Virus record (IMG/VR): IMGVR_UViG_3300047469_000247
Location: 1 to 49,034 of that record
Reading direction: 5' to 3' (one strand)
Source: a virus
Length of the DNA: 49,034 nt
In this document: piece after piece, positions 11,173-49,034 of the stretch
How the letters are laid out: every line of letters starts with the position of its first letter
Numbering within the stretch: position 1 is the stretch's first letter
Program-made: the position numbers and the translations under genes
The notes under the pieces: generated by a model
Database searches by the model: none
What the model was told of the DNA's origin: nothing
Seen by the model: the letters and a program-made list of their open reading frames with translations, nothing else

Positions 11173-11266
11173 GCAGGGCGTAGCTCAAAAAGAGGCGACC
11201 CGGGTCGCTGGTAGAGCAGATGGCTAGAAAGCCTGAAAGGTGCGGGTTCGAATCCCGCCGCCCTGC
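11173..11266 (+). tRNA. Aberrant tRNA-like element with D-loop insertion
   Basis: The ends pair as an acceptor stem (GCAGGGCG with CGCCCTGC). A perfect T arm is present at 11242-11258 (GCGGG, TTCGAAT, CCCGC) and a D stem GCTC/GAGC. The D loop holds about 21 extra bases including the 14-base palindrome GCGACCCGGGTCGC. The anticodon arm is poor: reading CTAGAAA as the loop leaves three of five stem pairs mismatched, while GGC/GCC gives a 3-bp stem with a 6-base loop. No CCA follows. It is either a degraded tRNA gene or a tRNA mimic; a working tRNA is doubtful. Confidence 0.45.
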
Positions 11267-15022: not shown

Positions 15023-16492
15023 TCAAGCCATCGAGTCCTTGGAGGCGACCTGCAGCCGACGGCCAATCCAACGAAGCACGGGGACCGCGACGCTATTCCC
15101 AAGACCTCGATACCGCGGAGCGTCCGCGGCCGGCTTGCCCTTCACGATGATGTCGGTCCAAAAATCGGGGAATCCCTGGAGGCGCTCGCATTCGACGGGC
15201 ATCAGTCTGCGCGCCACGTAGCCCGTCTTCGACTTCATGACCGGAAGATGCTCGACGTCGATGTTCTTCGAGGCTCCCGCCGTCGTCATCAGCGTTCCGA
15301 TGGTATCGGGGTGGACGATGACGAATTCCGTCTCGTTGCCGCCCATGCCGCCCATGCGATCACATCCGACACCGGATGCAAGCAGTGTCGGGATGATTTC
15401 GGGATGGACGACGCCGTGCGGAGTCGTCGTATCCAGGGTGTACATCGGCCCCTCCTCCGTGTGGCCGAAGCCGTTGGCGTTCGGCTGCGCGCCTGGAGAC
15501 TGGAGGGCATAAATCACGCCGTGCTGGCGGGCGGATGACATCAGGGTGTACATCGGGTCGGATGGATCGCCGATACCGGAGCCGACACCAGGAACACCGC
15601 CGGAGCCACCCGACATCTGCCACGGATAGCACGGATAGACAACGGCCGGAGGATCCTTGTAATCCGTGGCGACGAGCGTGTGCGCCGTCCTGGGATCCAT
15701 CACCGGGTCATACTGGCGATTCAGGAGCGCCGTCAGCTCTCCAGCGCCAGCCGCAGCACTTCCGGAACCTTCTTGCCTCGCCTCGACGCGCGCTTCAGAA
15801 CGCCCTGCTTCGCCGTGTCGCTCAAAAAGTATCTCCCCGGGATCGACCGCAGGATCAAAACTGACGACAACGAACACACGGCGGCGTCGCTGGGCGACTC
15901 CGAAAAATTGGGCATCCAAGACGCGCCACGCGATGCGCGCTTCTTGTCCATCAACGTGACCTGCGTTCGTCCAGCGGTTCCCTGGTGCGACCAGCGGCAC
16001 GGACTCTCCGGCAAATCCTGCCAGGATGCATCCGAAGGGGTTTGATTTTTCGTTGAGCATTCCGACGACGTTTTCGAGGGTGACATACTTGATCCCGTTG
16101 ATGCGGCGCATACGCTGCGCGAGCTGGACATAGGTGAGAGAGAGGTTGCCGCGCTCGTCGTCGAGACCGCCGCGCAGTCCTGCGACCGAGAAAGCCTGGC
16201 ACGGCGGCGATCCCTCGAGAATGTCGACGGGCCCGAGTGCTTCCAGATCCGCATCCGTGATCTGCGAGATGTCACCGAAGTTGACGACGCCCTCCTCGGG
16301 GATGTCGGCGTACCCCTTCGGCTTGAAGTCGCTACCTTCGGGCAGATACCGCGGACGGCCGGCCCCGCATCGCTGGTTCAGGACGTGCGCCTGGAACGAG
16401 GCAGGCTCGGCGTAGGCGACGAACTCCCAGCCGAGGGGCTTCCATGCGACGGAGGCGGCGGAAATGCCGCTGAATGTTGACATGACTCTCAT
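15023..16492 (-). CDS. DNA cytosine-C5 methyltransferase
   Basis: A 489-residue enzyme with the ordered motifs of the Dcm family: motif I FSGISAASVAWKPLGW (residues 7-22), motif IV SPPCQAFS with catalytic Cys98, motif VI ENV (140-142), motif VIII QRRRR (201-205), a long target-recognition region, motif IX RRLMPVECERLQGFP and motif X RGLGNSVAVPV near the C-terminus. It transfers a methyl group from AdoMet to C5 of cytosine; the target sequence cannot be read from the protein. No restriction nuclease lies beside it, so protection of phage DNA or gene control is likely. The start at 16492 has AAGGAT upstream; an ATG nine bases later is an alternative. Confidence 0.93.
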   Translation of the reverse strand: MRVMSTFSGISAASVAWKPLGWEFVAYAEPASFQAHVLNQRCGAGRPRYLPEGSDFKPKGYADIPEEGVVNFGDISQITDADLEALGPVDILEGSPPCQAFSVAGLRGGLDDERGNLSLTYVQLAQRMRRINGIKYVTLENVVGMLNEKSNPFGCILAGFAGESVPLVAPGNRWTNAGHVDGQEARIAWRVLDAQFFGVAQRRRRVFVVVSFDPAVDPGEILFERHGEAGRSEARVEARQEGSGSAAAGAGELTALLNRQYDPVMDPRTAHTLVATDYKDPPAVVYPCYPWQMSGGSGGVPGVGSGIGDPSDPMYTLMSSARQHGVIYALQSPGAQPNANGFGHTEEGPMYTLDTTTPHGVVHPEIIPTLLASGVGCDRMGGMGGNETEFVIVHPDTIGTLMTTAGASKNIDVEHLPVMKSKTGYVARRLMPVECERLQGFPDFWTDIIVKGKPAADAPRYRGLGNSVAVPVLRWIGRRLQVASKDSMA

Positions 16493-16568
16493 ATGGATCC
16501 TTTCGGTATCCATCAAGTCTGTGTCCGCGAGTCCTTTGTGGCAATGCACTTTGCAGACGTAATTGAAG

Positions 16569-18156: not shown

Positions 18157-18807
18157 ATGACCAAGGTAATCGTTGCTGGAAGCAACAAGGGAGGGAGCGG
18201 CAAGACCACCACCGTTCTCGGCGTGGCCTGCAGGCTGCACGAACTCGGACACAGCGTGGCCGTCCTCGACGTCGATCCGATGGCCTCCGCGGCCGACTGG
18301 GCCGACACATGTGATCTGATCGACGGAGAGCGCTTCGCCGTCCAGTCCGTCGTCGGGGCGCGTCTTCAGAAGACCATCGACGCCGCGCGCGCCAGCAAGG
18401 TCAACTACGTCATCGTGGACACCGCGGCAAAGAGCGAGGCCGATACCCGCATCGCATTCGAGAACGCCGACCACATCCTCGTGCTGTCGCGCCCGTCGCC
18501 GCTCGACCTCCGCGGCATCAGCCAGACCGTCAACCTCATTGATCTAGCGCAAAAGCGCGCTAGCGCACATGTCGTCTTGAACGCTTGCGCGCATTCGGCC
18601 ATCGCCGCCGATGCAGAGGCCGCAGTCAGGAAGACTTACGGACTGCCAGTATGCCCGGTCAAGATCGGCCAGTACATCGCGTTCACCCACGCCGTCACCG
18701 CCGGAACCTCCATCACCGCATTCGACAAGCACGGAAGGGCCGGCGAACAGATCCGCATCCTGACCGACTGGGTCCTGGCTACTCTGAAGAAGGGAGCAAA
18801 ATCATGA
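18157..18807 (+). CDS. parA: ParA-family partition ATPase
   Basis: A 216-residue protein of the small ParA/MinD class. Residues 11-18 are the deviant Walker A box KGGSGKTT, residues 36-42 (VLDVDPM) the switch I region and residues 85-91 (VIVDTAA) Walker B. It binds the nucleoid and moves DNA when stimulated by a partner. The following gene for a ribbon-helix-helix protein overlaps by four bases and is the likely partner. Residues 129-138 (DLAQKRASAH) are coded by a dispersed repeat, placed in a surface loop between core strands. The leader has CTGGAGAG before the ATG. Confidence 0.88.
   Translation: MTKVIVAGSNKGGSGKTTTVLGVACRLHELGHSVAVLDVDPMASAADWADTCDLIDGERFAVQSVVGARLQKTIDAARASKVNYVIVDTAAKSEADTRIAFENADHILVLSRPSPLDLRGISQTVNLIDLAQKRASAHVVLNACAHSAIAADAEAAVRKTYGLPVCPVKIGQYIAFTHAVTAGTSITAFDKHGRAGEQIRILTDWVLATLKKGAKS
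18544..18569. repeat. Dispersed palindromic repeat, copy E (inside parA)
   Basis: CTAGCGCAAAAGCGCGCTAG plus CGCACA. The copy is in frame in parA and adds about nine residues. Confidence 0.75.
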
Positions 18808-19103
18808 AGAAGCCGTCTCTGTCATCCGCCCTGTCCGGTTCGGCAGGAAAAGCCACCTCGGGAGCCGCGGTCGCACCAGCACCCGCTCTAGCCTCGGCCG
18901 TTCTGAAGTCGCTTCCTGAAGCCCCTGCGAAGAAGAAGCAGGCATCCCGGGACGGCATGAAGAACCTCTCCGTCCACGTTCCTCCGTCCGTCCACAAGCA
19001 ACTGGCAAGGCTCAAGCTGGACACCGACCAATCGCAGGAGGAACTCATGAGGATGGCCCTCAACCTGCTGTTCGAGTTCCACAAGCTTCCGACCATCGCA
19101 TGA
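18804..19103 (+). CDS. Ribbon-helix-helix partner of ParA
   Basis: A 99-residue protein overlapping parA by ATGA. Residues 1-50 are Ala/Pro/Lys rich and flexible. Residues 54-96 (MKNLSVHVPPSVHKQLARLK, QEELMRMALNLLFEF) fit a ribbon-helix-helix DNA-binding domain, as in ParG- or CopG-type centromere-binding proteins. Together with ParA this would be a type Ib-like partition pair, suggesting a plasmid-like prophage state. The centromere is not identified; the repeats and operator P1 upstream are candidates. Confidence 0.75.
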   Translation: MKKPSLSSALSGSAGKATSGAAVAPAPALASAVLKSLPEAPAKKKQASRDGMKNLSVHVPPSVHKQLARLKLDTDQSQEELMRMALNLLFEFHKLPTIA

Positions 19104-20101: not shown

Positions 20102-20596
20102 ATGAGGACGCATATAAGGACGGCCGACGAGATCGCGCAGCTTGTCAGCAAGCTGCGGAAGCACCTGGCGCACACTGCTCTGGCGCTGTTCAAGCTGGCG
20201 GCGAAGCACCCGGGGCGCGCCATTCCGGTTGCGTGGATCGCAAGAGTGACCGGACAGAGCCAGCGCACGGTCAAGCGGCACCTGGCGCAGATGAGGGAGG
20301 TCGGCCTGCTCGATGAGAGCGCGCCGAAGTGGAAGCGCGTGTCCGGAGGTCGGATCCACCAGCTACCGAAGCTGCGGCGGATCTGCCGCGTTCCGTTCCG
20401 CGTCTTCTCGCTGCTCCGCCAGAGTGACACCGACGGCACGGCACCAAAGAAGATAGAATATACCCTATACAAACAGAGGGATAGGAAGGCGTTCGACAAG
20501 ATGGTGAGGCTGGCGGCGTGCCTCGGGCATGGGATCGAGGACGTGGCGACTATCTGGCAGACGCACCTGAGAGCGATCATGAGTGGCACCGCGTGA
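20102..20596 (+). CDS. Winged-helix DNA-binding protein
   Basis: A 164-residue basic protein. Residues 38-72 (GRAIPVAWIARVTGQSQRTV then KRHLAQMREVGLL) form a clear helix-turn-helix with a following wing. Its C-terminal half holds a basic stretch and two helices. Directly upstream of the integrase gene, it could be a recombination directionality factor, a repressor or a replication initiator. The family cannot be decided from the sequence. Confidence 0.6.
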   Translation: MRTHIRTADEIAQLVSKLRKHLAHTALALFKLAAKHPGRAIPVAWIARVTGQSQRTVKRHLAQMREVGLLDESAPKWKRVSGGRIHQLPKLRRICRVPFRVFSLLRQSDTDGTAPKKIEYTLYKQRDRKAFDKMVRLAACLGHGIEDVATIWQTHLRAIMSGTA

Positions 20597-20646
20597 CGGA
20601 TTCCACGCCGGCATGTAGAATCTTCTGCAAATCAGGAGATATCGAC

Positions 20647-21837
20647 ATGGTCGAACGCGTGCGATTCACGGAAAAGACGGCGGGCAAGCTACCGATCCCG
20701 AAGACGGGCGAGAGCCTCGTCTACGACACCGAGGTGCCGAATCTGGCGCTGCGCATCCGCTCGTCCGGCTCGAAGTCGTGGCTGCTGAAGAAGGGGGCTG
20801 AAAAGTTCCGGCTGGGAGCGGTGAAGGACGTGACCATCGCGGAAGCGAGGGTGGCCTCGATGAAGATCCTGACCGACATCGCCACCGGAGACCGCCCAGA
20901 AAAGAAGCTGAAGCCGACCGTCAGGGATGTCCTGGAAGCCTACATGTCCGACCACGTGGCCTCGAGGTGCAAGCCGCGGACGGCGGAAAGCTACCGCATC
21001 CTGCTCGACCAGCACATCCTGCCGCGTATCGGAGACGTCCTCTCCAACGATCTGTCGCCGCGTCACGTCGACCTGATGCTGTCGGACATGGTGGCTATCA
21101 AGGCGACGGCCAACAAGAGCCTCGCGCTCCTCAACGCCGCGTTCAACAAGGCGCTCAGATGGGGACTTCGCGATCCGGCAAGGGGCAACCCGTGCATCGG
21201 GGCGGAACAGCACTACCTTCCGCCCCGGGAGACGTTCCTCACGGCCGGAGAGCTCGCGGGCCTCCTGGACGCGCTGGAGGACCTTTCCGAGCAGAAGGGG
21301 AAGTGGCATGCGGCCATGTGTCTGAAGATCCTTGGCGTGACAGGCTGCCGGCGCGACGAGATGCGGCTCCTCGAGGAGTCATGGATCGACTGGACGGGGA
21401 GGGAGGTCCACTGGCCCGATACGAAGACGGGTGCCGGCAACCTCATCCTCTCTGGTGTGGCGATCGACCTTCTGAAGCGTGTCGCCGGACACCGCGCCAT
21501 GCGCGACGGGATGCCGATCATGTTCCGCGGCAAGGACACCTCCATCGTGCTGCCGCACATGACCCTCTACCGTGTCTGGAAGCACGCCCTGAAGCGCGCC
21601 ATCAGCCATTACGGCGTCGATCCGCGCCGCCTCGCGGGGCTACGGCCGCACGATCTCAGGCACTCCTTCGCATCGCTGGGCCTGTCCTCCGGACTGACGC
21701 TCGATGACGTTCGCCGCCTCCTGCGCCACCGCGATGCATCCTCAACCGCAAGATACGCACGCCACCTCCCACAGCGTGAGCGCGAACTTGCGGATGCGTC
21801 GGAAGGCTTCCTGCAACTTACGGTGACTACTGCATAA
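20647..21837 (+). CDS. int: Tyrosine integrase
   Basis: A 396-residue site-specific recombinase. The N-terminal 60 residues (LVYDTEVPNLALRIRSSGSK, KFRLG) are the DUF4102-type arm-binding domain of P4-like integrases. A core-binding SAM-like domain follows (about 90-180). The catalytic set is visible: Arg235 in TGCRRDE, Lys260, His335 and Arg338 in HDLRHS, His361 in RHRDASS and nucleophile Tyr370 in ARYARH. The start has AGGAG. P4-type integrases commonly use tRNA genes; no attachment site could be identified here. Confidence 0.92.
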   Translation: MVERVRFTEKTAGKLPIPKTGESLVYDTEVPNLALRIRSSGSKSWLLKKGAEKFRLGAVKDVTIAEARVASMKILTDIATGDRPEKKLKPTVRDVLEAYMSDHVASRCKPRTAESYRILLDQHILPRIGDVLSNDLSPRHVDLMLSDMVAIKATANKSLALLNAAFNKALRWGLRDPARGNPCIGAEQHYLPPRETFLTAGELAGLLDALEDLSEQKGKWHAAMCLKILGVTGCRRDEMRLLEESWIDWTGREVHWPDTKTGAGNLILSGVAIDLLKRVAGHRAMRDGMPIMFRGKDTSIVLPHMTLYRVWKHALKRAISHYGVDPRRLAGLRPHDLRHSFASLGLSSGLTLDDVRRLLRHRDASSTARYARHLPQRERELADASEGFLQLTVTTA

Positions 21838-22246: not shown

Positions 22247-22297
22247 AAGGATTCCCTGTTGACATGTGTTGACTGTGTTTACATCATGTTATACAAC
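22247..22297 (+). promoter_or_regulatory. Promoter/operator P2 of the AbiEi-like gene
   Basis: AAGGATTC (22247) precedes TTGACA (22259-22264), and CATCAT follows after 17 bases. A second TTGACT (22269) has TACAAC 17 bases later. The operator half-site GTGTTTACAT lies at 22275-22284, with ATGTTAT as a weaker second arm. Confidence 0.6.
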
Positions 22298-22322
22298 ACT
22301 GCCAACACAGAAGGTATCGAGC

Positions 22323-22964
22323 ATGAGTGCCTGGACAAAAGAAGACTTCGCCGCATGGATCGACCGCAACGGTCTGCAGATCCGCGGCGATGCCGAACGA
22401 ATCCTTTTCCTGAAGGCCACGTCCGTCTCGCGGATCAAGGCCGGCACCCAGACGCTCACGCCCCGCACCCAGGCGATCGCCGAGGCGTTCGAGGCCTCCC
22501 GCACGGTCGAGGACGACGGCCTGATCTCGTTCGAGGCCGCTGAACTCGGTCTGGCCGACATCTGCGAGAGCGTCCCCTGCAGCGTCGTGACCGCGCTGAC
22601 GGCCGCTTCCCTGAAGGGATGGGGATCCTCCATGCCGCGCGTCCTGTTCGTCGCCCGGCCGCCATACTACGCCACCCGCCGGACTGACAACGAGCGCATC
22701 GTCTCGCTGTCCTGCCCGGTCCTGCCGGACGAGGTGAAGATCATGCGCGACCGCGACGGCCGCCCGTTCCGCATCGCCTCCGACGAGCGTCTCGTCATCG
22801 ACTGCGTGCGCCACGAGACGCTCTGCGGTGCGTTCGAAGTCGAGGAAGTCGTCCGCGCGGCGGTGTCCGATGGCGTGTCTCCAGCCGCTCTCCGCAAGCT
22901 GGCTGCGCGCTACGGCGATGACGTCGTGGCGGCTCTGGACAGGCATCTGGCGAAGGTCGGCTGA
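22323..22964 (+). CDS. AbiEi-like antitoxin
   Basis: A 213-residue protein. The N-terminal 50 residues hold a helix-turn-helix (FLKATSVSRIKAGTQTLTPR), and residues 150-205 carry the C-terminal pattern of AbiEi antitoxins (FRIASDERLVIDCVRHETLC, then AALRKLAARYG). In type IV AbiE systems the antitoxin represses its own promoter and counters a nucleotidyltransferase toxin. The AbiEii-like gene is 320 bases downstream, with one gene between. Autoregulation through P2 is plausible. Confidence 0.65.
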   Translation: MSAWTKEDFAAWIDRNGLQIRGDAERILFLKATSVSRIKAGTQTLTPRTQAIAEAFEASRTVEDDGLISFEAAELGLADICESVPCSVVTALTAASLKGWGSSMPRVLFVARPPYYATRRTDNERIVSLSCPVLPDEVKIMRDRDGRPFRIASDERLVIDCVRHETLCGAFEVEEVVRAAVSDGVSPAALRKLAARYGDDVVAALDRHLAKVG

Positions 22965-23289: not shown

Positions 23290-24213
23290 ATGGCATACAA
23301 CGTCGGAGAAAGCCTGAACCAGATCGCAAAGAACAAGGGCGAGGAACCGCATGAGTTCTTCAAGCGCTTCGCGATGAGCCAGTACATGTTCCGCGTCACC
23401 GAAGCCGATCACGCCGGAGACGTGATGATGATCGGCGGCATGGCGTGGGTCTTCCTCCAGGAGCTCAAGGCCGACGCGCGCAACACCACCGACATGGACA
23501 TCCGCTTCACCCACGTGAAGACCGAGGCCGAAGTCCGCGACATCTTCGAGAACGCCGCGAAGATCGAGCGTGACGATGGAATGCGCTACGAGATCACCAA
23601 GTACGAGGATCTGAACCACAGCGGCGACCACAAGGGCATGCGCGTCCGCATGATCGCACGCTGCGGCGAGGGCAGGTCCGAGCGCCGGGCCGGAGTCCAC
23701 ATCGACGTCGGATTCGGCTATGGAGCCAAGCCGCGCCATGCAAAGGTCGCTGACTTCCCCTCGCTCCACCCGAAGCTGGAGAGCGGCAAGATTCAAATCG
23801 TGCCTGTGGAGTACATAGCGGCCGAGAAGATGTCCGCGATCCTCGTCCACGGCATGGATAACACCCGCCTGAAGGACTTCAACGATCTCTACGTCCTCGC
23901 CTCCAAGAGGCTGGATCCCGCACGCATGGCCGAGGCCGTCGCCCTGACCTTCTCCGAGCGCCGCCACGACATCCCCGCGGACACCTGCGACCTCGAGGGC
24001 CTGTCGATGGCGTTCGTGAAGAAGAACCAGGAGGCGTGGGAGCGCTGGCTCGTCAACTTCAGGCGCACGGAGAAGATGCCAGGGTCATTCGCCGAGGTCG
24101 TCGCCAGGGTCGATGAGTTCATGATGACCTCGTTCCGCGCAGCCGCCGGCTTCCGACACGACGTCGAACTCGAACTCGACGAGGTGGTCTACGCGCCGCG
24201 GAGGCCCGCATGA
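23290..24213 (+). CDS. AbiEii-like nucleotidyltransferase toxin
   Basis: A 307-residue protein with the AbiEii/AbiGii (PF08843) pattern: GGMAWVFLQ near residue 50, T-T-D-M-D-I near residue 67 with the paired acidic residues of the polymerase-beta fold, and AAEKMSAILVHGMDNTRLKD plus FNDLYVL near residues 178-205. Members transfer nucleotides to tRNA or other targets and stop growth, often aborting phage infection. It has its own promoter P3, unlike the usual bicistronic AbiE operon. The next gene overlaps by four bases and may be another control protein. Confidence 0.8.
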   Translation: MAYNVGESLNQIAKNKGEEPHEFFKRFAMSQYMFRVTEADHAGDVMMIGGMAWVFLQELKADARNTTDMDIRFTHVKTEAEVRDIFENAAKIERDDGMRYEITKYEDLNHSGDHKGMRVRMIARCGEGRSERRAGVHIDVGFGYGAKPRHAKVADFPSLHPKLESGKIQIVPVEYIAAEKMSAILVHGMDNTRLKDFNDLYVLASKRLDPARMAEAVALTFSERRHDIPADTCDLEGLSMAFVKKNQEAWERWLVNFRRTEKMPGSFAEVVARVDEFMMTSFRAAAGFRHDVELELDEVVYAPRRPA

Positions 24214-25881: not shown

Positions 25882-26150
25882 AGTCCTCATTGTCAACAAT
25901 GGACAGGCTGTCCCGATTGTCAACAATGGGCGCGGCCGGCCTGAGGCTGCCCTCCGGCTTCGTCGGCCGGATGGAGGCGTTCGACGCCGTCCGATCGCAT
26001 GCAGTTCGCAAGGGCTGGAACGCCGGCCACGTCCAGGGGGTGATCGCCGCCGTCAGGGGCGAGGCTTCGTCGGATCCGTCGAGGGATCTCGACTGGCAGC
26101 TTCAGGAGGTGCAGAAGCGCCTCCGAATCAGGCTTCCCAAGGGTTCCTGA
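25878..26150 (+). CDS. Small protein with operator-like start
   Basis: A 90-residue protein, ATGA-coupled to the HTH gene. The first 17 codons contain two exact copies of ATTGTCAACAAT (25889-25900 and 25916-25927), each a perfect 5-base inverted repeat around CA, so the N-terminus reads STM-SRLSTM. The rest (GRMEAFDAVRSHAVRKGWNA) is helical. Function unknown; the DNA repeats may be more important than the peptide they code for. Confidence 0.55.
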   Translation: MKSSLSTMDRLSRLSTMGAAGLRLPSGFVGRMEAFDAVRSHAVRKGWNAGHVQGVIAAVRGEASSDPSRDLDWQLQEVQKRLRIRLPKGS

Positions 26151-26395
26151 GGGTCTCTGCCCTCCGATTTCGGGGATTGGTGTCTCTCAGGCTCCGTCCC
26201 CTTGCTGGCAGGCATGGGGCCTGATGTCCTGTCTGATCGCTTCCGCCCATTACTCCGGTGTTCGGAATCAGTTTTCTAGCGCAAAAGCGCGCTTTCAGAC
26301 TTCCGTGCTTTTGGCCTCCAAGGATTCGATTTCGGGCCTTGCGTCTGTCGAAGCCGGCGCACATCATCCTTGGTAACCGAGGAAAGACTCCGAAT
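26151..26395 (+). other. Leader region of the replication gene
   Basis: No gene is seen. It holds dispersed repeat copy F (26276-26313), an AAGGATTC at 26320 and the GAGGA that may serve the ATG at 26396. It is a candidate place for an origin, but no iteron series was found. Confidence 0.4.
26276..26313. repeat. Dispersed palindromic repeat, copy F
   Basis: CTAGCGCAAAAGCGCGCTTT followed by CAGACTTCCGTGCTTTTG, upstream of the replication gene. Confidence 0.75.
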
Positions 26396-28351
26396 ATGGA
26401 GCGCCTCATAACAAGCCACGAACCACGCAGTAAGATTGAGATTATGCACGCCACCATTCCGAGAAAAAGTTATCGGGAAGACCCCGCAAGACACAAGCCG
26501 CTGTCCTATCACTGGCGCGTCAAGCACGAGGAACTCCACGACCTCATTCCACACGCTCCCGTCTACAAGGACGAGGGGCTTCAGGCGGCATCCGACTCGA
26601 TGCTGTGCGACCTTATCCAGGTTGCGCGTTCGAAGACACCTGACCGCCGCATCTCCTATTCCCGCCGCATGGCGTGGTATTCGAACGGTGATCGCTACCG
26701 AGGATCCGAATACACCTACCGCAACGTGCTGTCCTCCGTCGAAGGACTGAAGACCGCCGGCCTGATCGTCGACGAGGATCGCCGCCTCCCGGGAACCGTG
26801 AACAATCGCGACGCCAGCGGCCACGGCATCCAGTCGTCGTTCCGCGCCACGCCTGAACTGGTCGGCTTCAAGCCGCCGAAGATCTGGCGTGCGCGCAAGA
26901 ACGAGATCATCGTCCTCAAAGACGGAGACAAGAACCTCGTCGGCTACCGCGACACCGAGCGCACATCCCGGATGCGGAAGAAGCTGGCCGCATACAACGA
27001 GATCATCCTTGGAACCGACATCCGCTTCGACAAGCCGGGCGTTGAGATCGTGGACGGCATCGCGCATCTGACCGACCAGCACTCCGTCTATCTCGACATG
27101 AAGGAATCCTACCGCGTCTTCAATAACGAGGTCTGGACGGACGGCGGCCGCCTATACGGAACTTGCTGGCAGCAGATGGACTCCGAGGAGCGTTCATTCA
27201 TCCTCATCGACGGCGAGACGGTCACCGAGATCGACCATGACCAGATCCATCCGCGGTTCTGCTACGCGCACGCCGGAGCCGAATACGAGGGCGACGCCTA
27301 CAATATCCCCGGATGGAACCGCTCCAAGGCCGAGCGCGATCTCGTGAAGATCGGCTGGAACATCTTGCTCAACGCGTCCGGCTACGTCGAGGCGCTCAAG
27401 GCGTTCACGCACAAGATCGGATGCGAGGTGACGGCAAGGGAGTGCCTGAGGGACATCCGCGCGGCTCATCCGAAGATCGCGCACCTCTTCCACTCGGGCA
27501 TCGGTATCAAGCTGCAGAACCTCGATGCGGAGATGGCGATGGAAGTCGTCGAGCATTTCACGATCAAGCACGGTGTCCCGTGTCTCTCTGTCCACGACAG
27601 TTTCATCGTTGCTTCGAGCCACAAGGGAGACCTCGCTGTGTGCATGGCGGAGGTGATGAAGAAGGGTCTGGCTCGTGTCGGGAATTACGTAAAGAAATCA
27701 AAGGTAAGTCGTGTTTCCATTCCACATATGGAAGCCCTCTCCTCCTCTCCCCTGCCCGAGGGGGCCCTCGGCGGTTCCTCATGCTCTGAATCTGAATCCA
27801 GACTCGAGGCTCATAATGAATCTCTGAACCCCAAACCCAACACTCCAGCCTCTGTTGTGGAACTCCATACCCGGAACACGGTAGACTCAGACTCTACTCA
27901 TTCCAATACGGCAGGAGACCACACGGACATACCCCGCTTGTTCAACCGGAGACCTTCGAACCCGAACACGAAGACGGACGATACGGCAAACCCCGAAAAG
28001 AAGGCCATGGAGTGCAATGGAGACGATGATCTGGTGTTGGACGCGTCAGACCTTCCCGAAGACGCTCTACGGGTCGTTTCCACTGATCCTGCGATGGAGT
28101 CCGCATTCGTTGCGATGCTTGCCGATGAGACGAATGCCGAGGAACAGAGGCCACGCGATATGAAGATCCACTTCAAGAAGCTGGCGGACAGGCAGACGGC
28201 TGCAGCGGCACGATCCGAGCAGGAGACACCCGAAGAGAAACGCAAGAGACTATATCCGTGGCTCAGGAGCGGTGAAACGAAGACGGCAGACAGCATCCGT
28301 GACGAACAGTTCCGCCGCGAGAGATTGACGCAGGCACGCCGGCAGGGATGA
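26396..28351 (+). CDS. Replication protein with family A polymerase-like palm
   Basis: A protein of 651 residues from the ATG at 26396 (an alternative ATG is at 26444). Residues about 90-170 form a winged helix (RRMAWYSNGDRYRGSEYTYR, VEGLKTAGLIVDE), as in Rep initiators. The core carries motifs in the order of family A DNA polymerases: motif A EIDHDQIHPR with Asp280 (compare DYSQIELR), motif B RDLVKIGWNILLNASG with Arg314 and Lys318 (compare RDxxKxxxYxxxYG) and motif C VHDSF with His400 and Asp401 (compare VHDE). Residues after about 440 are low complexity. No helicase or primase is encoded, so this is the only replication gene. The polymerase reading is inference. Confidence 0.65.
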   Translation: MERLITSHEPRSKIEIMHATIPRKSYREDPARHKPLSYHWRVKHEELHDLIPHAPVYKDEGLQAASDSMLCDLIQVARSKTPDRRISYSRRMAWYSNGDRYRGSEYTYRNVLSSVEGLKTAGLIVDEDRRLPGTVNNRDASGHGIQSSFRATPELVGFKPPKIWRARKNEIIVLKDGDKNLVGYRDTERTSRMRKKLAAYNEIILGTDIRFDKPGVEIVDGIAHLTDQHSVYLDMKESYRVFNNEVWTDGGRLYGTCWQQMDSEERSFILIDGETVTEIDHDQIHPRFCYAHAGAEYEGDAYNIPGWNRSKAERDLVKIGWNILLNASGYVEALKAFTHKIGCEVTARECLRDIRAAHPKIAHLFHSGIGIKLQNLDAEMAMEVVEHFTIKHGVPCLSVHDSFIVASSHKGDLAVCMAEVMKKGLARVGNYVKKSKVSRVSIPHMEALSSSPLPEGALGGSSCSESESRLEAHNESLNPKPNTPASVVELHTRNTVDSDSTHSNTAGDHTDIPRLFNRRPSNPNTKTDDTANPEKKAMECNGDDDLVLDASDLPEDALRVVSTDPAMESAFVAMLADETNAEEQRPRDMKIHFKKLADRQTAAAARSEQETPEEKRKRLYPWLRSGETKTADSIRDEQFRRERLTQARRQG

Positions 28352-28383: not shown

Positions 28384-28746
28384 ATGACCCCCGCCCTTCA
28401 CCTCGATCGCTTCACCCTCGCACGTCCAACCCGTCTTCGTGACGGAGAGCCGCAATGGCTTGGCAACTGGCGGTACCAGAGCCAGTTGATGGAGATCCGC
28501 GGCGCGTTCGAAGACATGGACACGCTGAACCTCCTGATCGCCTCGACGGGCAGCTACGGCTACCTGACCTTCCCTGCGACAGCCGCGATCCTGAAGCGCG
28601 ACGAAACCAGCCCGCGGGTGCTGCAGGGCAAATGGGAGGCTCCAGACCGGAAGGAATGGATTATCACGGCCGCGCCCCGGAGCGTGGAGAAGGGCGATCC
28701 GGCATCGCTTTATTTCATCTGCGAACTAGCGCGCTTTCGCGCTTGA
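28384..28746 (+). CDS. Small protein of unknown function
   Basis: A 120-residue protein with the CGGCAACTGGAGAGAA leader (identical over 16 bases to that of the gene at 32046). Sequence is mixed, with MDTLNLLIASTGSYGYLTFP in the middle. The last residues (ELARFRA) and the stop codon come from dispersed repeat copy G. Function unknown. Confidence 0.6.
   Translation: MTPALHLDRFTLARPTRLRDGEPQWLGNWRYQSQLMEIRGAFEDMDTLNLLIASTGSYGYLTFPATAAILKRDETSPRVLQGKWEAPDRKEWIITAAPRSVEKGDPASLYFICELARFRA
28725..28746. repeat. Dispersed palindromic repeat, copy G (gene end)
   Basis: ACTAGCGCGCTTTCGCGCTT, a short copy forming the 3' end of the gene 28384-28746. Confidence 0.6.
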
Positions 28747-41130: not shown

Positions 41131-42678
41131 ATGAAATTCGTGCTTCCCACACCCATTGGCGGGATCGGCGGAGGCAGTGGCGGGGAGGGGCCTGCGGGTC
41201 CAGCCGGAAAATCCGCATACCAGCTTGCAGTGGATCGGGGCTTCACCGGGACGCTGGACGAGTGGCTGGCTTCGCTTCAGGGCGAGGACGGCGTCGACGG
41301 TGCTGACGGCCAGAATGGTGTCGATGGCATAGATGGAACGAACGGTGCTGACGGAGACGACGGCGCGACTGGTGCTGACGGCCTTTCGGCCTATCAGGTT
41401 GCTGTCGGCCTCGGGTTCGGCGGAAGCGCTTCGGACTGGCTGAACTCTCTCAAGGGCGCTGCTGGTGCCAAAGGCGACAAGGGCGACAAGGGTGATACTG
41501 GCGCAAGCGGCACCAGTGCATTCCTTCCGGCCTTGGTCAACGTCCCCGGGGACTACGCAACGGTTCAGGCCGCTCTGGACGCATATGATGCTGCTGGTGG
41601 CCTTGTCGTTGGCAATGCCATTTTCACGATCCAGCTCCCGGTTGCCGGCGCGTCTTCGCCACTGACAGAAAGGTTTTTCTGGGCTTCCAAGGACTACTCC
41701 CGCGTTAAGATCAAGGGGGCTGCTCCTGTCTCTGGAATCGTCACAAACCTTTCCAACATGGCCGGATCCGTTGGCACCGGGTACACGATCACCCTGACCG
41801 TGCCGTCGGATGTCGCCACGGCGGCTGCGGCGGCCGGATGGGCGCTCCTTGAGGCTGGTGTCATTTTGAACCACGCCGACAAGACTAAGCTCGTCGGCTA
41901 CTGGCCCGTGGTGTCCACCACTTCCACGACGGTGACGCTCAGGATCTGGGGTCAGGTGGCATTTATCGGGCAGCACGGCAATGACGCGAACACATGGCGT
42001 CTGACCGTGTTCACGACGACCTTCAAAATCCCAGCGACCATTAGCGGATCGCCGGCGAAATGGATCAATGCCAACCGGGTCAAGTGTCCAGATCTCGAAG
42101 ACCTTGGTGTCATCGGCGGGGCGCTCGATGGAGGATACACCGCGGTTGACGGCCACCTTGGAATCGACCTGTACGATTCGGAGATTAGAACTCCGATGTA
42201 CGATGGTCTGTCGACTACGAGATCGTGCTCTCTTGCCTTCGGCGCATGGTTCTGGGGCGTGTCTCTCAGGCATCACTCGTTCTTTACCGGAGGGGTGGCG
42301 GTATCGTGCAGCGCGTCGTTTGGCGTGATCCAGTTCAATGGATCGGAGTCGAACTTCATGCCCCTGTATTCTACAGGCAACGGCAAGAATCTTTCCTCGG
42401 GCGGTATCGGCCTGTTCGGATTCTCCATCTCGAGGGCTGGCAACGGCGGCTTTGCGAGGCCGTCGTTCATTTCAGGCAACGGCGGCTACGGAGTGCAGGT
42501 GTCCGAGCAGAGCAGATACTACCATCCCAACGGTGGCATCCTATCGAATGTATCCACTGACGTTCTCGCGGACAGCAATGCCCATGTGATGCTCTACGGA
42601 GTTTCCAACCTTGCTATAGGCACCTCCTCTCCGGCGATCAATACCCTCGGAAACTCGAACAGCTTCATCAGACGATGA
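41131..42678 (+). CDS. Collagen-like spike/fibre protein 1
   Basis: A 515-residue protein. The N-terminus (MKFVLPTPIGGIGGG) is shared with two later genes. Two copies of a 28-residue unit with the core KSAYQLAVDRGFTG and LSAYQVAVGLGFGG flank Gly-x-x repeats (GADGDDGATGADG, AGAKGDKGDKGDTG), as in trimeric phage collagen stalks. Residues 135 on (YATVQAALDAYDAAGG, many Ser/Gly-rich strands) look like a right-handed beta-helix. It differs fully in its C-terminal part from the other two, so it probably recognises another surface glycan. Confidence 0.75.
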   Translation: MKFVLPTPIGGIGGGSGGEGPAGPAGKSAYQLAVDRGFTGTLDEWLASLQGEDGVDGADGQNGVDGIDGTNGADGDDGATGADGLSAYQVAVGLGFGGSASDWLNSLKGAAGAKGDKGDKGDTGASGTSAFLPALVNVPGDYATVQAALDAYDAAGGLVVGNAIFTIQLPVAGASSPLTERFFWASKDYSRVKIKGAAPVSGIVTNLSNMAGSVGTGYTITLTVPSDVATAAAAAGWALLEAGVILNHADKTKLVGYWPVVSTTSTTVTLRIWGQVAFIGQHGNDANTWRLTVFTTTFKIPATISGSPAKWINANRVKCPDLEDLGVIGGALDGGYTAVDGHLGIDLYDSEIRTPMYDGLSTTRSCSLAFGAWFWGVSLRHHSFFTGGVAVSCSASFGVIQFNGSESNFMPLYSTGNGKNLSSGGIGLFGFSISRAGNGGFARPSFISGNGGYGVQVSEQSRYYHPNGGILSNVSTDVLADSNAHVMLYGVSNLAIGTSSPAINTLGNSNSFIRR

Positions 42679-42906: not shown

Positions 42907-44682
42907 ATGCCCCAGTTTGTATTACCGACGCCTATCGGCGGAACGGGAGGTGGTGGCGGTGGCGAGGGATCGCCCGGTCCCGCCGGAAAGAGTGCCTACC
43001 AGCTTGCAGTCCAGCAAGGATTCGCAGGGACGCTTGCGGAATGGCTGGAAAGCCTCCAAGGCTCCGATGGAGCTGACGGTGTTGACGGATCCGGCGGGGA
43101 CGCAGGACTCGATGGCAAGTCGGCATACCAGATCGCGGTTGACCAGGGATTCCTTGGTAGCGAGTCGGCTTGGATCCTTTCGCTGAAGGGCGATCCCGGC
43201 GCCAAGGGCGACAAGGGTGATACCGGAGCCAAAGGGGCCGACGGTCTCGACGGGTCGAACTACTACGTCCTCGGCATGGGGTCGGTGACGATCCCGGGAA
43301 CGATCAACGCCATTCGGGTAGGCGGATACTACGAGGCTGGAGATGGCGGATCCGCCCTCTACAAGCGCGTGGCGTCGCAGCCGTCCCACTCCGGCAAGTT
43401 CCAGTCCGCGGACGGGGCGTGGTGGGAGCTGACCTACACGATGTACGTCAACGCGGCGTCGTTCGGAGCCAAGCCCGACACCACATCGACCTTCGACAGC
43501 GCGCCGGCACTCAATGCCGCAACCGACTTCCTCGTCGCCAAGGGCGGCGGCTTCCTAGACCTCAATCCAGGCCAGTTCTGGATTGGAGCCGAGGTCACGC
43601 TGAAGAGCCGCGTCGTGATCCGCGGCGCGGGACGGCGTGTCTCCTGGATCAAGCGCAAGACGGGCTATCTGCTCGACATGCTCAAGACCCAGGACTACGA
43701 CACGCTTTCGCTGGGTGACAGCGCCGACGGTCCAAACCGCTTCGGCCTGATGAACCTGACCATCGACGGGCGGAAGGACTACAACACCAGCGCGACGGGC
43801 TGGAACATCTCGATCTACGGCCGAGCCTACCTCATCGACGATGTGGACAGCGAATACTGCCCGGCTGGAAGTTTCCGCTCGGCATGGGGTTCGGTCGCTC
43901 CCGCATGGGACAATGACAACACCGACAGCGCCGGCGAGTGCTTCATCGACAAGTTTTTCGTCCAGTTCTCGAAGGGGGCACCTGTTTTCGACGGTCCCCA
44001 CGATTCCCAAATCGGCAGGATGCTGGTGTCGATGTCGCGGCACAATCAGGCCGCTCTGGCAGGGTCGTCCACGTTCGTCATCGCGCAGCGCGCCTCGGGA
44101 ACGCAGTTCTCTCAGCTCCACTGCTGGGGCGACAGTCCCGAGTGGTGCGTCACCAACTACGCCCAGGCCATCTCCATCGCCGACCTCATCCTCGACGATG
44201 CGCGGCCGGGCGGCGGATTGCTGAAACAACTCGGGTCGGACTGCCTGATCACAGGCCGCGGCGTTCAGTACGGCGCGGACTCGATCAAGGGCATCCAGAT
44301 CGGCCAGAACGGCGGAACGCAAGCGGCTCGGAACAGGATCACCCTGCTCCTGACCTCGGTTCCGGCGGTCGTGGTGGACTTCTCGAACGACGGTGGCAAC
44401 GACGTCGCGGTGACCGTCACCGCCTATGCGGCGACCACCAACACGGCCGGCACGCGACATGCCTCGACGACCTTCACCTATACGGAGAGGGGAGCGGGTG
44501 CTGGTGCGAACGATTTCCTGTCGGTCTTCGGGGCGCTCACGGTCAACAAGCAAACGATCCAGGTGCAGCCGAGATCAGGCACGCCGACCGATGTCGCATG
44601 GGCCGAGGGCCTCGTCTACTACGACACCTCCACCCATAAGCTGCGCGTCTTTAACGGGACGGGCTGGGCGGACTGCAACTGA
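42907..44682 (+). CDS. Collagen-like spike/fibre protein 2
   Basis: A 591-residue protein. It shares the N-terminal VLPTPIGG tag, two KSAYQ(L/I)AV units and the collagen stretch GDPGAKGDKGDTGAKGADG with the others. The head domain (from YYVLGMGSVTIPGTINAIRV, residue 118) has beta-helix-like sequence and ends YYDTSTHKLRVFNGTGWADC, a C-terminal tag common in phage fibres. It is a close paralogue of the next gene over its whole length. Confidence 0.8.
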   Translation: MPQFVLPTPIGGTGGGGGGEGSPGPAGKSAYQLAVQQGFAGTLAEWLESLQGSDGADGVDGSGGDAGLDGKSAYQIAVDQGFLGSESAWILSLKGDPGAKGDKGDTGAKGADGLDGSNYYVLGMGSVTIPGTINAIRVGGYYEAGDGGSALYKRVASQPSHSGKFQSADGAWWELTYTMYVNAASFGAKPDTTSTFDSAPALNAATDFLVAKGGGFLDLNPGQFWIGAEVTLKSRVVIRGAGRRVSWIKRKTGYLLDMLKTQDYDTLSLGDSADGPNRFGLMNLTIDGRKDYNTSATGWNISIYGRAYLIDDVDSEYCPAGSFRSAWGSVAPAWDNDNTDSAGECFIDKFFVQFSKGAPVFDGPHDSQIGRMLVSMSRHNQAALAGSSTFVIAQRASGTQFSQLHCWGDSPEWCVTNYAQAISIADLILDDARPGGGLLKQLGSDCLITGRGVQYGADSIKGIQIGQNGGTQAARNRITLLLTSVPAVVVDFSNDGGNDVAVTVTAYAATTNTAGTRHASTTFTYTERGAGAGANDFLSVFGALTVNKQTIQVQPRSGTPTDVAWAEGLVYYDTSTHKLRVFNGTGWADCN

Positions 44683-48840: not shown

Positions 48841-49034
48841 ATGGCGCGTCCTTCGATGTGGGGCTTCCGCTTCAAGACGCTGGATCTCGGCACTCCGGAG
48901 GAATACTTCGACGGCCTCCAGAAGCCGTTCAAGGAAGCCGCCACCGAGACGATGCGCGAGACGGGGCTTCTGGCCAAGACCAAGCTGCGCGCACAGGCCA
49001 AGGCCCGCTTCCGCAACAGGCCTGGCAAGGGCGC
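48841..49034 (+). CDS. DUF6441-like tail protein, 5' part
   Basis: Starts with ATG at 48841 (MARPSMWGFRFKTLDLGTPE), four bases after the chaperone stop, and runs off the window; the remainder is at 1-581. See the first entry for the product. Confidence 0.8.
   Translation, partial: MARPSMWGFRFKTLDLGTPEEYFDGLQKPFKEAATETMRETGLLAKTKLRAQAKARFRNRPGKG
48908..49034. repeat. Right copy of 127-bp terminal identity
   Basis: Identical to bases 1-127. It shows that the contig closes to a circle. Confidence 0.9.

Follow-up and report, generated by a model that had tools for sequence, protein, structure and literature searches.

A compact divPolA2/TV-Pol-like family A polymerase in a temperate phage and in small tRNA-integrated elements

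The window, that is, the whole stretch of DNA analysed here, comprises the 49,034 nucleotides of the IMG/VR virus record IMGVR_UViG_3300047469_000247. Its first 127 bp recur as a perfect direct repeat at its end (positions 1-127 and 48908-49034), and the presence of this repeat at both ends of the record indicates that the assembly, about 48.9 kb long, is circular and complete. Comparison of the open reading frames with Pfam and PHROGs identified the large and small subunits of a lambda-type terminase, portal, protease-capsid, tail, and lysis proteins, an integrase, and ParA, and from this set of structural, lysis, integrase, and ParA genes the window is read as a temperate tailed phage. The features on which the argument draws are the following:

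18157..18807, + strand: ParA-like partition ATPase of the phage (phrog_164, E 1e-29; PF13614)
20518..21837, + strand: tyrosine integrase of the phage (phrog_1, E 9e-52)
25883..25929, + strand: a 20-bp repeat with ATTGTCAACAATG in it, present in two copies about 470 bp upstream of the polymerase gene
26396..28351, + strand: divPolA2/TV-Pol-like polymerase gene, 651 aa (PHROG 4756, E 1.2e-40; 84-member alignment; AlphaFold2 model)
28384..28746, + strand: 120-aa open reading frame directly downstream of the polymerase gene, with no family; a possible partner protein that was not found near the relatives

The ParA-like gene is followed by a protein at about 18800-19103 (+) whose end resembles a ribbon-helix-helix partner. 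The two would form a partition pair, and the phage, which carries an integrase, may also persist as a plasmid. Positions 22266-22964 and 23290-24213 (+) hold an AbiEii nucleotidyltransferase toxin (PF08843, 1e-21) and, upstream of it, what may be the antitoxin, and AbiEi/AbiEii likewise adjoin the polymerase gene in a relative on a Thioclava plasmid (L001). A C5-cytosine DNA methyltransferase (PF00145) is encoded at 15023-16549 (-); one of the PHROGs that it matches (864) is labelled DNA primase, a label probably due to a domain fused in that group. The Rfam tRNA match at 11174-11266 (+), which scores 34.6 bits and is not called by ARAGORN, is possibly an unusual or decayed tRNA. The adjoining large proteins at 41131-42678 and 42907-44682 (+) share an identical collagen-like N-terminus and are probably duplicated tail fibre genes. 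Two distant relatives of the terminase were examined, and when viral contigs were scanned for peptide patterns of the polymerase or the terminase, no relatives turned up.

The initial annotation had described the polymerase as the sole replication gene of this DNA, with no helicase, primase, or clamp elsewhere. Within the reach of Pfam and PHROGs this holds for the complete genome, given that none of the other open reading frames scanned was identified as a helicase, primase, polymerase, or clamp. Nonetheless, many open reading frames match no family in either collection, and two small HTH proteins give weak matches, one replication-initiator-like (E 6e-4) and the other helicase-loader-like (E 5e-3).

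The polymerase gene runs from an ATG at 26396 to a stop at 28351, and its coordinates, its length of 651 aa, and the numbering of D280 and D401 had been given correctly. A longer reading frame from a GTG at 26258 is possible, although the homologues do not need the extension. The protein belongs to PHROG 4756, whose function label is unknown, matches no Pfam family at all (including PF00476, at the curated cut-off, and PF00940), and found nothing in a sequence search of the PDB. Homologues occur in 157 phage records, four plasmid records, and at least 80 bacterial-genome loci, mostly of Alphaproteobacteria. With tblastn, matches were obtained in 115 Rheinheimera phage records, among them Barba19A (E 3e-5) with all catalytic residues aligned, and in some lytic phages the homologue search matched two places per record.

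The immediate surroundings of the gene were searched for elements of a replication module. No replication origin was identified beside it, no conserved partner gene adjoining it was found by sequence across the neighbourhoods of the relatives, and clustering of open reading frames did not reveal a conserved small AlpA-like gene upstream. The 20-bp repeats upstream are nearly palindromic and have TTGACA on the opposite strand; with three matches of ATTGTCAACAATG versus 0.28 expected, they are a candidate operator or initiator-binding site on the basis of sequence. Within the polymerase, the following parts are distinguished, the counts referring to 84 aligned homologues with the window protein counted among them:

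26492..26890, + strand: N-terminal domain, residues 33-165, probable winged helix (folded alone, pLDDT 90)
27110..27172, + strand: beta-hairpin with the GGR(F)Y..WQ motif, residues 239-259 (strands 239-242 and 250-254 in the model)
27227..27256, + strand: motif A, EIDHDQIHPR, residues 278-287 (catalytic D280, 84/84)
27293..27295, + strand: fingers aspartate D300 (82/84)
27335..27382, + strand: motif B, RDLVKIGWNILLNASG, residues 314-329 (R314xxxK318, both 84/84)
27512..27529, + strand: LQNLDA segment, residues 373-378, consensus LQxxDS (L373 80/84, D377 80/84)
27590..27604, + strand: motif C, VHDSF, residues 399-403 (catalytic H400 and D401 84/84, S402 82/84)
27707..28348, + strand: C-terminal tail, residues 438-651 (mostly low model confidence; long helix 565-609)

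Eight residues are invariant in all 84 proteins (G251, R252, R266, D280, R314, K318, H400, and D401), while D300, N326, D377, and S402 vary in at most five. In the hairpin, Y254 (83/84) and Q259 (81/84) accompany the invariant G251 and R252, and R252 is the template-side arginine that belongs to the T/DxxGR motif of the superfamily. The family A polymerase-like palm that had been proposed from motifs A, B, and C is thus confirmed by this invariance, by the Foldseek match to Pol I, and by VIA-align. A chance match of the motifs was rejected, given their invariance in 84 homologues and the model.

The residues that select the sugar differ from those of Pol I. Alignment of motifs A and B maps E710, F762, and Y766 of Pol I to H285, N322, and N326. 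At the position of the sugar gate E710, histidine is found in 72 of the 84 proteins and glutamate in none; F762 corresponds to N322 in the window protein and to leucine (47) or asparagine (24) in the family; and N326 (79/84) occupies the position of Y766, which is that of Y639 in T7 RNA polymerase. Given that the sugar-gate residues of Pol I are replaced across the family, the divPolA2-like proteins should, judging from their sequences, discriminate less against ribonucleotides.

The AlphaFold2 model, built on a 64-sequence alignment, contains the predicted palm: its core (pLDDT >90) consists of a family A palm and minimal fingers. Foldseek placed Pol I first (best E 8.9e-5, probability 1.00), while in VIA-align mitochondrial RNA polymerase (Z 13.6) and Bst Pol I (Z 13.0) are tied. 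An ordinary Pol I or T7 RNA polymerase was rejected, given that there is no Pfam match and that profile-profile alignments are local only, in a test of low power in which the profiles of T7 RNA polymerase and T7 DNA polymerase fail to align with each other. The initial annotation had listed the exonuclease and most of the thumb and fingers as missing. The exonuclease is indeed absent from the model, in which the N-terminal domain matches winged-helix-like folds and not an exonuclease, and no Pol I-like thumb is evident; the fingers, in contrast, are present as a compact helical unit around motif B (helices 311-326, 330-341, 344-357, 359-364, and 369-391). The N-terminal domain is connected to the palm through only one long helix (188-206) in the model. 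From the model, the N-terminal domain is likely a winged helix, as had been supposed, given that its structural matches are almost only winged helices (Fur, ArsR, PadR, ScpA, ORC, RPA2), weak and suggestive at Z 5-6 (maximum 6.0). The C-terminal tail is long, with 216 residues beyond residue 435 compared with a family median of 48.

The distribution of the relatives follows mobile DNA. Polymerase matches were found in 22 of 289 sampled alphaproteobacterial genomes (about 8%), some of which have more than one, as is expected for mobile DNA. An integrase-like protein group lies within six genes of the polymerase at 44 of the 78 genome loci, most often directly upstream and on the same strand, whereas the integrase background across 58 alphaproteobacterial genomes is 261 matches in about 165 Mb, that is, about 1.6 per Mb or 0.03 per 21 kb. 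Among the immediate neighbours, 12 are confirmed integrases and nine carry the DUF6538 domain, which is also present in these integrases. Serine resolvases lie near the polymerase at 12 of the 78 loci, and restriction-type genes are recurrent. Several loci have the gene order tRNA, integrase, polymerase, and in eight of them polymerase-bearing elements of 7.3-13.4 kb are bounded by exact direct repeats of the tRNA region, for which a length of 17 bp was reached by random segments in 0.7% of trials:

L042 (Mesorhizobium): element of 7.98 kb, direct repeat of at least 60 bp
L085: element of 9.7 kb, direct repeat of at least 60 bp
L082: element of 7.3 kb, direct repeat of 37 bp
L022: element of 10.6 kb, direct repeat of 21 bp
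L058: element of 9.2 kb, direct repeat of 20 bp
L023: element of 8.1 kb, direct repeat of 19 bp
L066: element of 8.7 kb, direct repeat of 19 bp
L049: element of 13.4 kb, direct repeat of 17 bp

According to Pfam, these elements contain integrases, resolvases, and cargo, and a helicase, of the SF1 type, in L049 alone. In the other seven, no helicase, primase, or other polymerase was recognised, which leaves the polymerase as their only candidate DNA-synthesis gene. A COG3378/D5-type helicase partner was not found in any of the eight. PICMI satellites use a DUF3987/DUF5906 'prim' gene (PMC10803314), and since they have this gene instead of the polymerase, they were rejected as the identical element type and are analogous elements. 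At another locus, in a Mesorhizobium genome, a full-length ORC-CDC6-like protein (PF24389, E 5e-127) is encoded near the polymerase gene (L078:13458-15401).

Relatives also coexist with other replication genes. One contig (L105, G111:C14) has a period of 8,949 bp, with 84% matching positions over two copies, and carries RepA_C, ParA, a resolvase, and a divergent divPolA2-like copy; its sequence is probably that of a small plasmid of 8.95 kb assembled as a concatemer. Given the presence of RepA, the divPolA2-like protein is probably not the initiator there. Barba19A has its own DNA polymerase and primase besides the divPolA2-like gene, and KASIA has DNA polymerase I, primase, helicase, and RNA polymerase, indicating that the family is not generally a replicase. 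Belonging to the family is therefore not enough to mark a protein as an initiator or a replicase.

Taken together, the protein is best read as an active, compact, template-dependent polymerase of the family A/T7 RNA polymerase superfamily that acts as a primase or primase-polymerase and starts phage replication for the host replisome, a reading to which we give a probability of roughly 0.55. What the computation shows is the fold, the invariance of the catalytic residues, the absence of an exonuclease, the distribution on mobile elements, and the genomic context. The winged helix would bind DNA near the phage origin, or another replication protein of phage or host. The palm and compact fingers would then start a new strand on a locally single-stranded template with no existing primer, as CCPol and the apparently missing thumb suggest, the latter because its absence would leave room for the first nucleotide triphosphate. 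Ribonucleotides may be accepted, given the replaced sugar-gate residues, and the helicase and replicase of the host would extend the primer.

This priming role is favoured because all catalytic residues are invariant in 84 divergent homologues with a confidently modelled palm and fingers, because the polymerase follows mobile DNA far above the integrase background, and because it is the only candidate DNA-synthesis gene in seven of the eight elements. One relative shares a probable small plasmid with RepA, and others occur in lytic phages that have complete replisomes; for such company a primase is a more fitting role than an initiator or replicase, and priming would better fit all of these contexts, the host or phage replisome doing the remainder. 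In addition, CCPol, which has been assigned to the TV-Pols, primes de novo with MP (PMC7581432, PMC10061031). Within the cited studies, CCPol-MP is the only case of measured activity among the enzymes assigned to TV-Pols, and there is none for divPolA2 proteins. Counted against priming are the dependence of CCPol on an OB-fold partner, the retention of at least one copy by lytic phages that have their own primase, where the function may differ, the lack of an identified origin beside the gene, and the lack of a sequence match in Ma-LMM01. More tentatively, a single protein might start replication, its winged helix recognising the origin and its thumb-less palm laying a primer of RNA or of mixed RNA-DNA there. 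As their only DNA-synthesis gene, it would drive a whole class of 7-13 kb integrated elements and at least one temperate phage. If true, this would be a primase unrelated in fold to the DnaG and AEP primases.

The main rival, which we consider unlikely, makes the protein a compact single-subunit RNA polymerase for the genes of the phage or element, whose promoters the winged helix would recognise. Motif C reads HDSF, as in T7-like RNA polymerases, which share IHDS, and not HDE as in Pol I; the GGRFY arginine motif resembles their GR-Y, and motif B has their R...K pair. PF00940 (RNA_pol) is the polymerase model that relatives match, weakly and in six of 64 (best E 1.3e-3), so that the sequence hints lean slightly toward RNA polymerases. 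The top VIA-align match is mitochondrial RNA polymerase, tied with Pol I, the sugar gate is lost, and RNA synthesis is also allowed by Yutin et al. 2024 (PMC11348598). However, with about 430-500 aa versus 800-880 aa in the known phage enzymes, the family's polymerase is half their size and lacks the promoter-binding N-terminal domain; asparagine (N326) stands in place of the key Tyr639, and the window protein itself does not match PF00940. Moreover, KASIA carries a separate RNA polymerase alongside, and small integrated elements would have little need for a transcriptase of their own.

An improbable reading is the one that the initial annotation had put forward, an initiator and replicase in one chain, in which the winged helix would open the origin and the protein itself would copy the genome. 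The winged-helix-like N-terminus and the position of the gene as the only recognised DNA-synthesis gene of a complete 49-kb phage and of seven elements agree with it, but a polymerase with no evident thumb and no exonuclease is predicted to have poor processivity and fidelity over 49 kb. Temperate phages commonly rely on the host replicase. Given that relatives coexist with a RepA plasmid or with complete phage replisomes, including DNA polymerase and primase, it is not the best reading. Least probable of all is a polymerase for repair, translesion synthesis, or anti-defence that has no part in the start of phage replication. In favour of it, other superfamily members do repair, the neighbourhood is variable, and some lytic phages have two or three paralogues (PMC11348598). 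Against it, genes for repair do not recur next to the polymerase, and its recurrent pairing with an integrase in minimal elements points to element propagation.

Returning to priming, the phage and the small tRNA-integrated elements reduce the system to an integrase and a polymerase, which makes the role testable as primase, RNA polymerase, or replicase. The family itself is known. What is new is the polymerase as sole recognised DNA-synthesis gene and shared gene of small tRNA-integrated elements, with relatives often beside a tyrosine integrase, in such elements, and on a probable small plasmid beside RepA. In this way a phage family and an integrated-element family that were described separately are joined.

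The first of these is divPolA2, described in barbaviruses and related Caudoviricetes by Yutin et al. 2024, who suggested repair or RNA synthesis and noted the paralogues and variable neighbourhoods mentioned above (PMC11348598). The window protein shares with it the active palm, the lack of exonuclease, the N-terminal globular domain, and the similarity to both DNA polymerases and mitochondrial RNA polymerases, and its structure matches a Barba31A protein in BFVD (E 8e-19); the published proteins have no recognisable thumb, and none is evident in the model. Judging from its size and motifs, and from the presence of another polymerase in that genome, the Barba19A homologue is probably the divPolA2 of these authors. 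In contrast to the published proteins, which were described only in phages with a regular DNA polymerase, the window protein comes from a temperate phage in which no further polymerase was recognised, and its relatives lie in integrated elements. The N-terminal domain, with no known similarity according to PMC11348598, is winged-helix-like here, and the C-terminus of the window protein is extended by a tail of about 200 aa.

The protein also fits most features of the TV-Pols of alphaproteobacterial mobile elements, for which Iyer, Abhiman, and Aravind 2008 predicted primase-polymerase activity (PMC2579912). These have 400-600 aa, a conserved hairpin arginine, two palm aspartates, a fingers aspartate with RxxxK, and no nuclease, and a subset neighbours a lambda-type integrase, a gamma-delta resolvase, and restriction systems (PMC2579912). 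Here the corresponding residues are R252, D280, D401, R314, and K318 (each 84/84) and D300 (82/84), and the same types of neighbour recur (integrase-like at 44/78 loci, resolvase at 12/78, restriction-type genes), with an integrase also in the window. Unlike TV-Pols, there is no D5 helicase partner; their two-helix antiparallel thumb is not evident in the model, where one helix is seen. The shared features strongly suggest a single family comprising divPolA2 and the alphaproteobacterial TV-Pols, although a search of the whole Ma-LMM01 record with the family profile for the TV-Pol link gave no match.

CCPol, which Iyer et al. assigned to the TV-Pols (PMC2579912), synthesises primers de novo together with MP, its partner (PMC7581432, PMC10061031). 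It is close to Pol I, retains E710 and F762, and makes DNA primers from dNTPs (PMC7581432), whereas the window protein has H285 and N322 at these positions (H in 72/84; L in 47 and N in 24 of 84 in the family). PolA-SSB primases have an adjacent COG3378/DUF927 helicase, in contrast to the window, where no helicase family was recognised in the open reading frames scanned. Nonetheless, the CCPol-MP (PolA-SSB) primases found on SCC elements (Bebel 2020, PMC7581432; Rice 2023, PMC10061031) combine a family A core, an integrating element, and reduced accessory domains, as is the case here.
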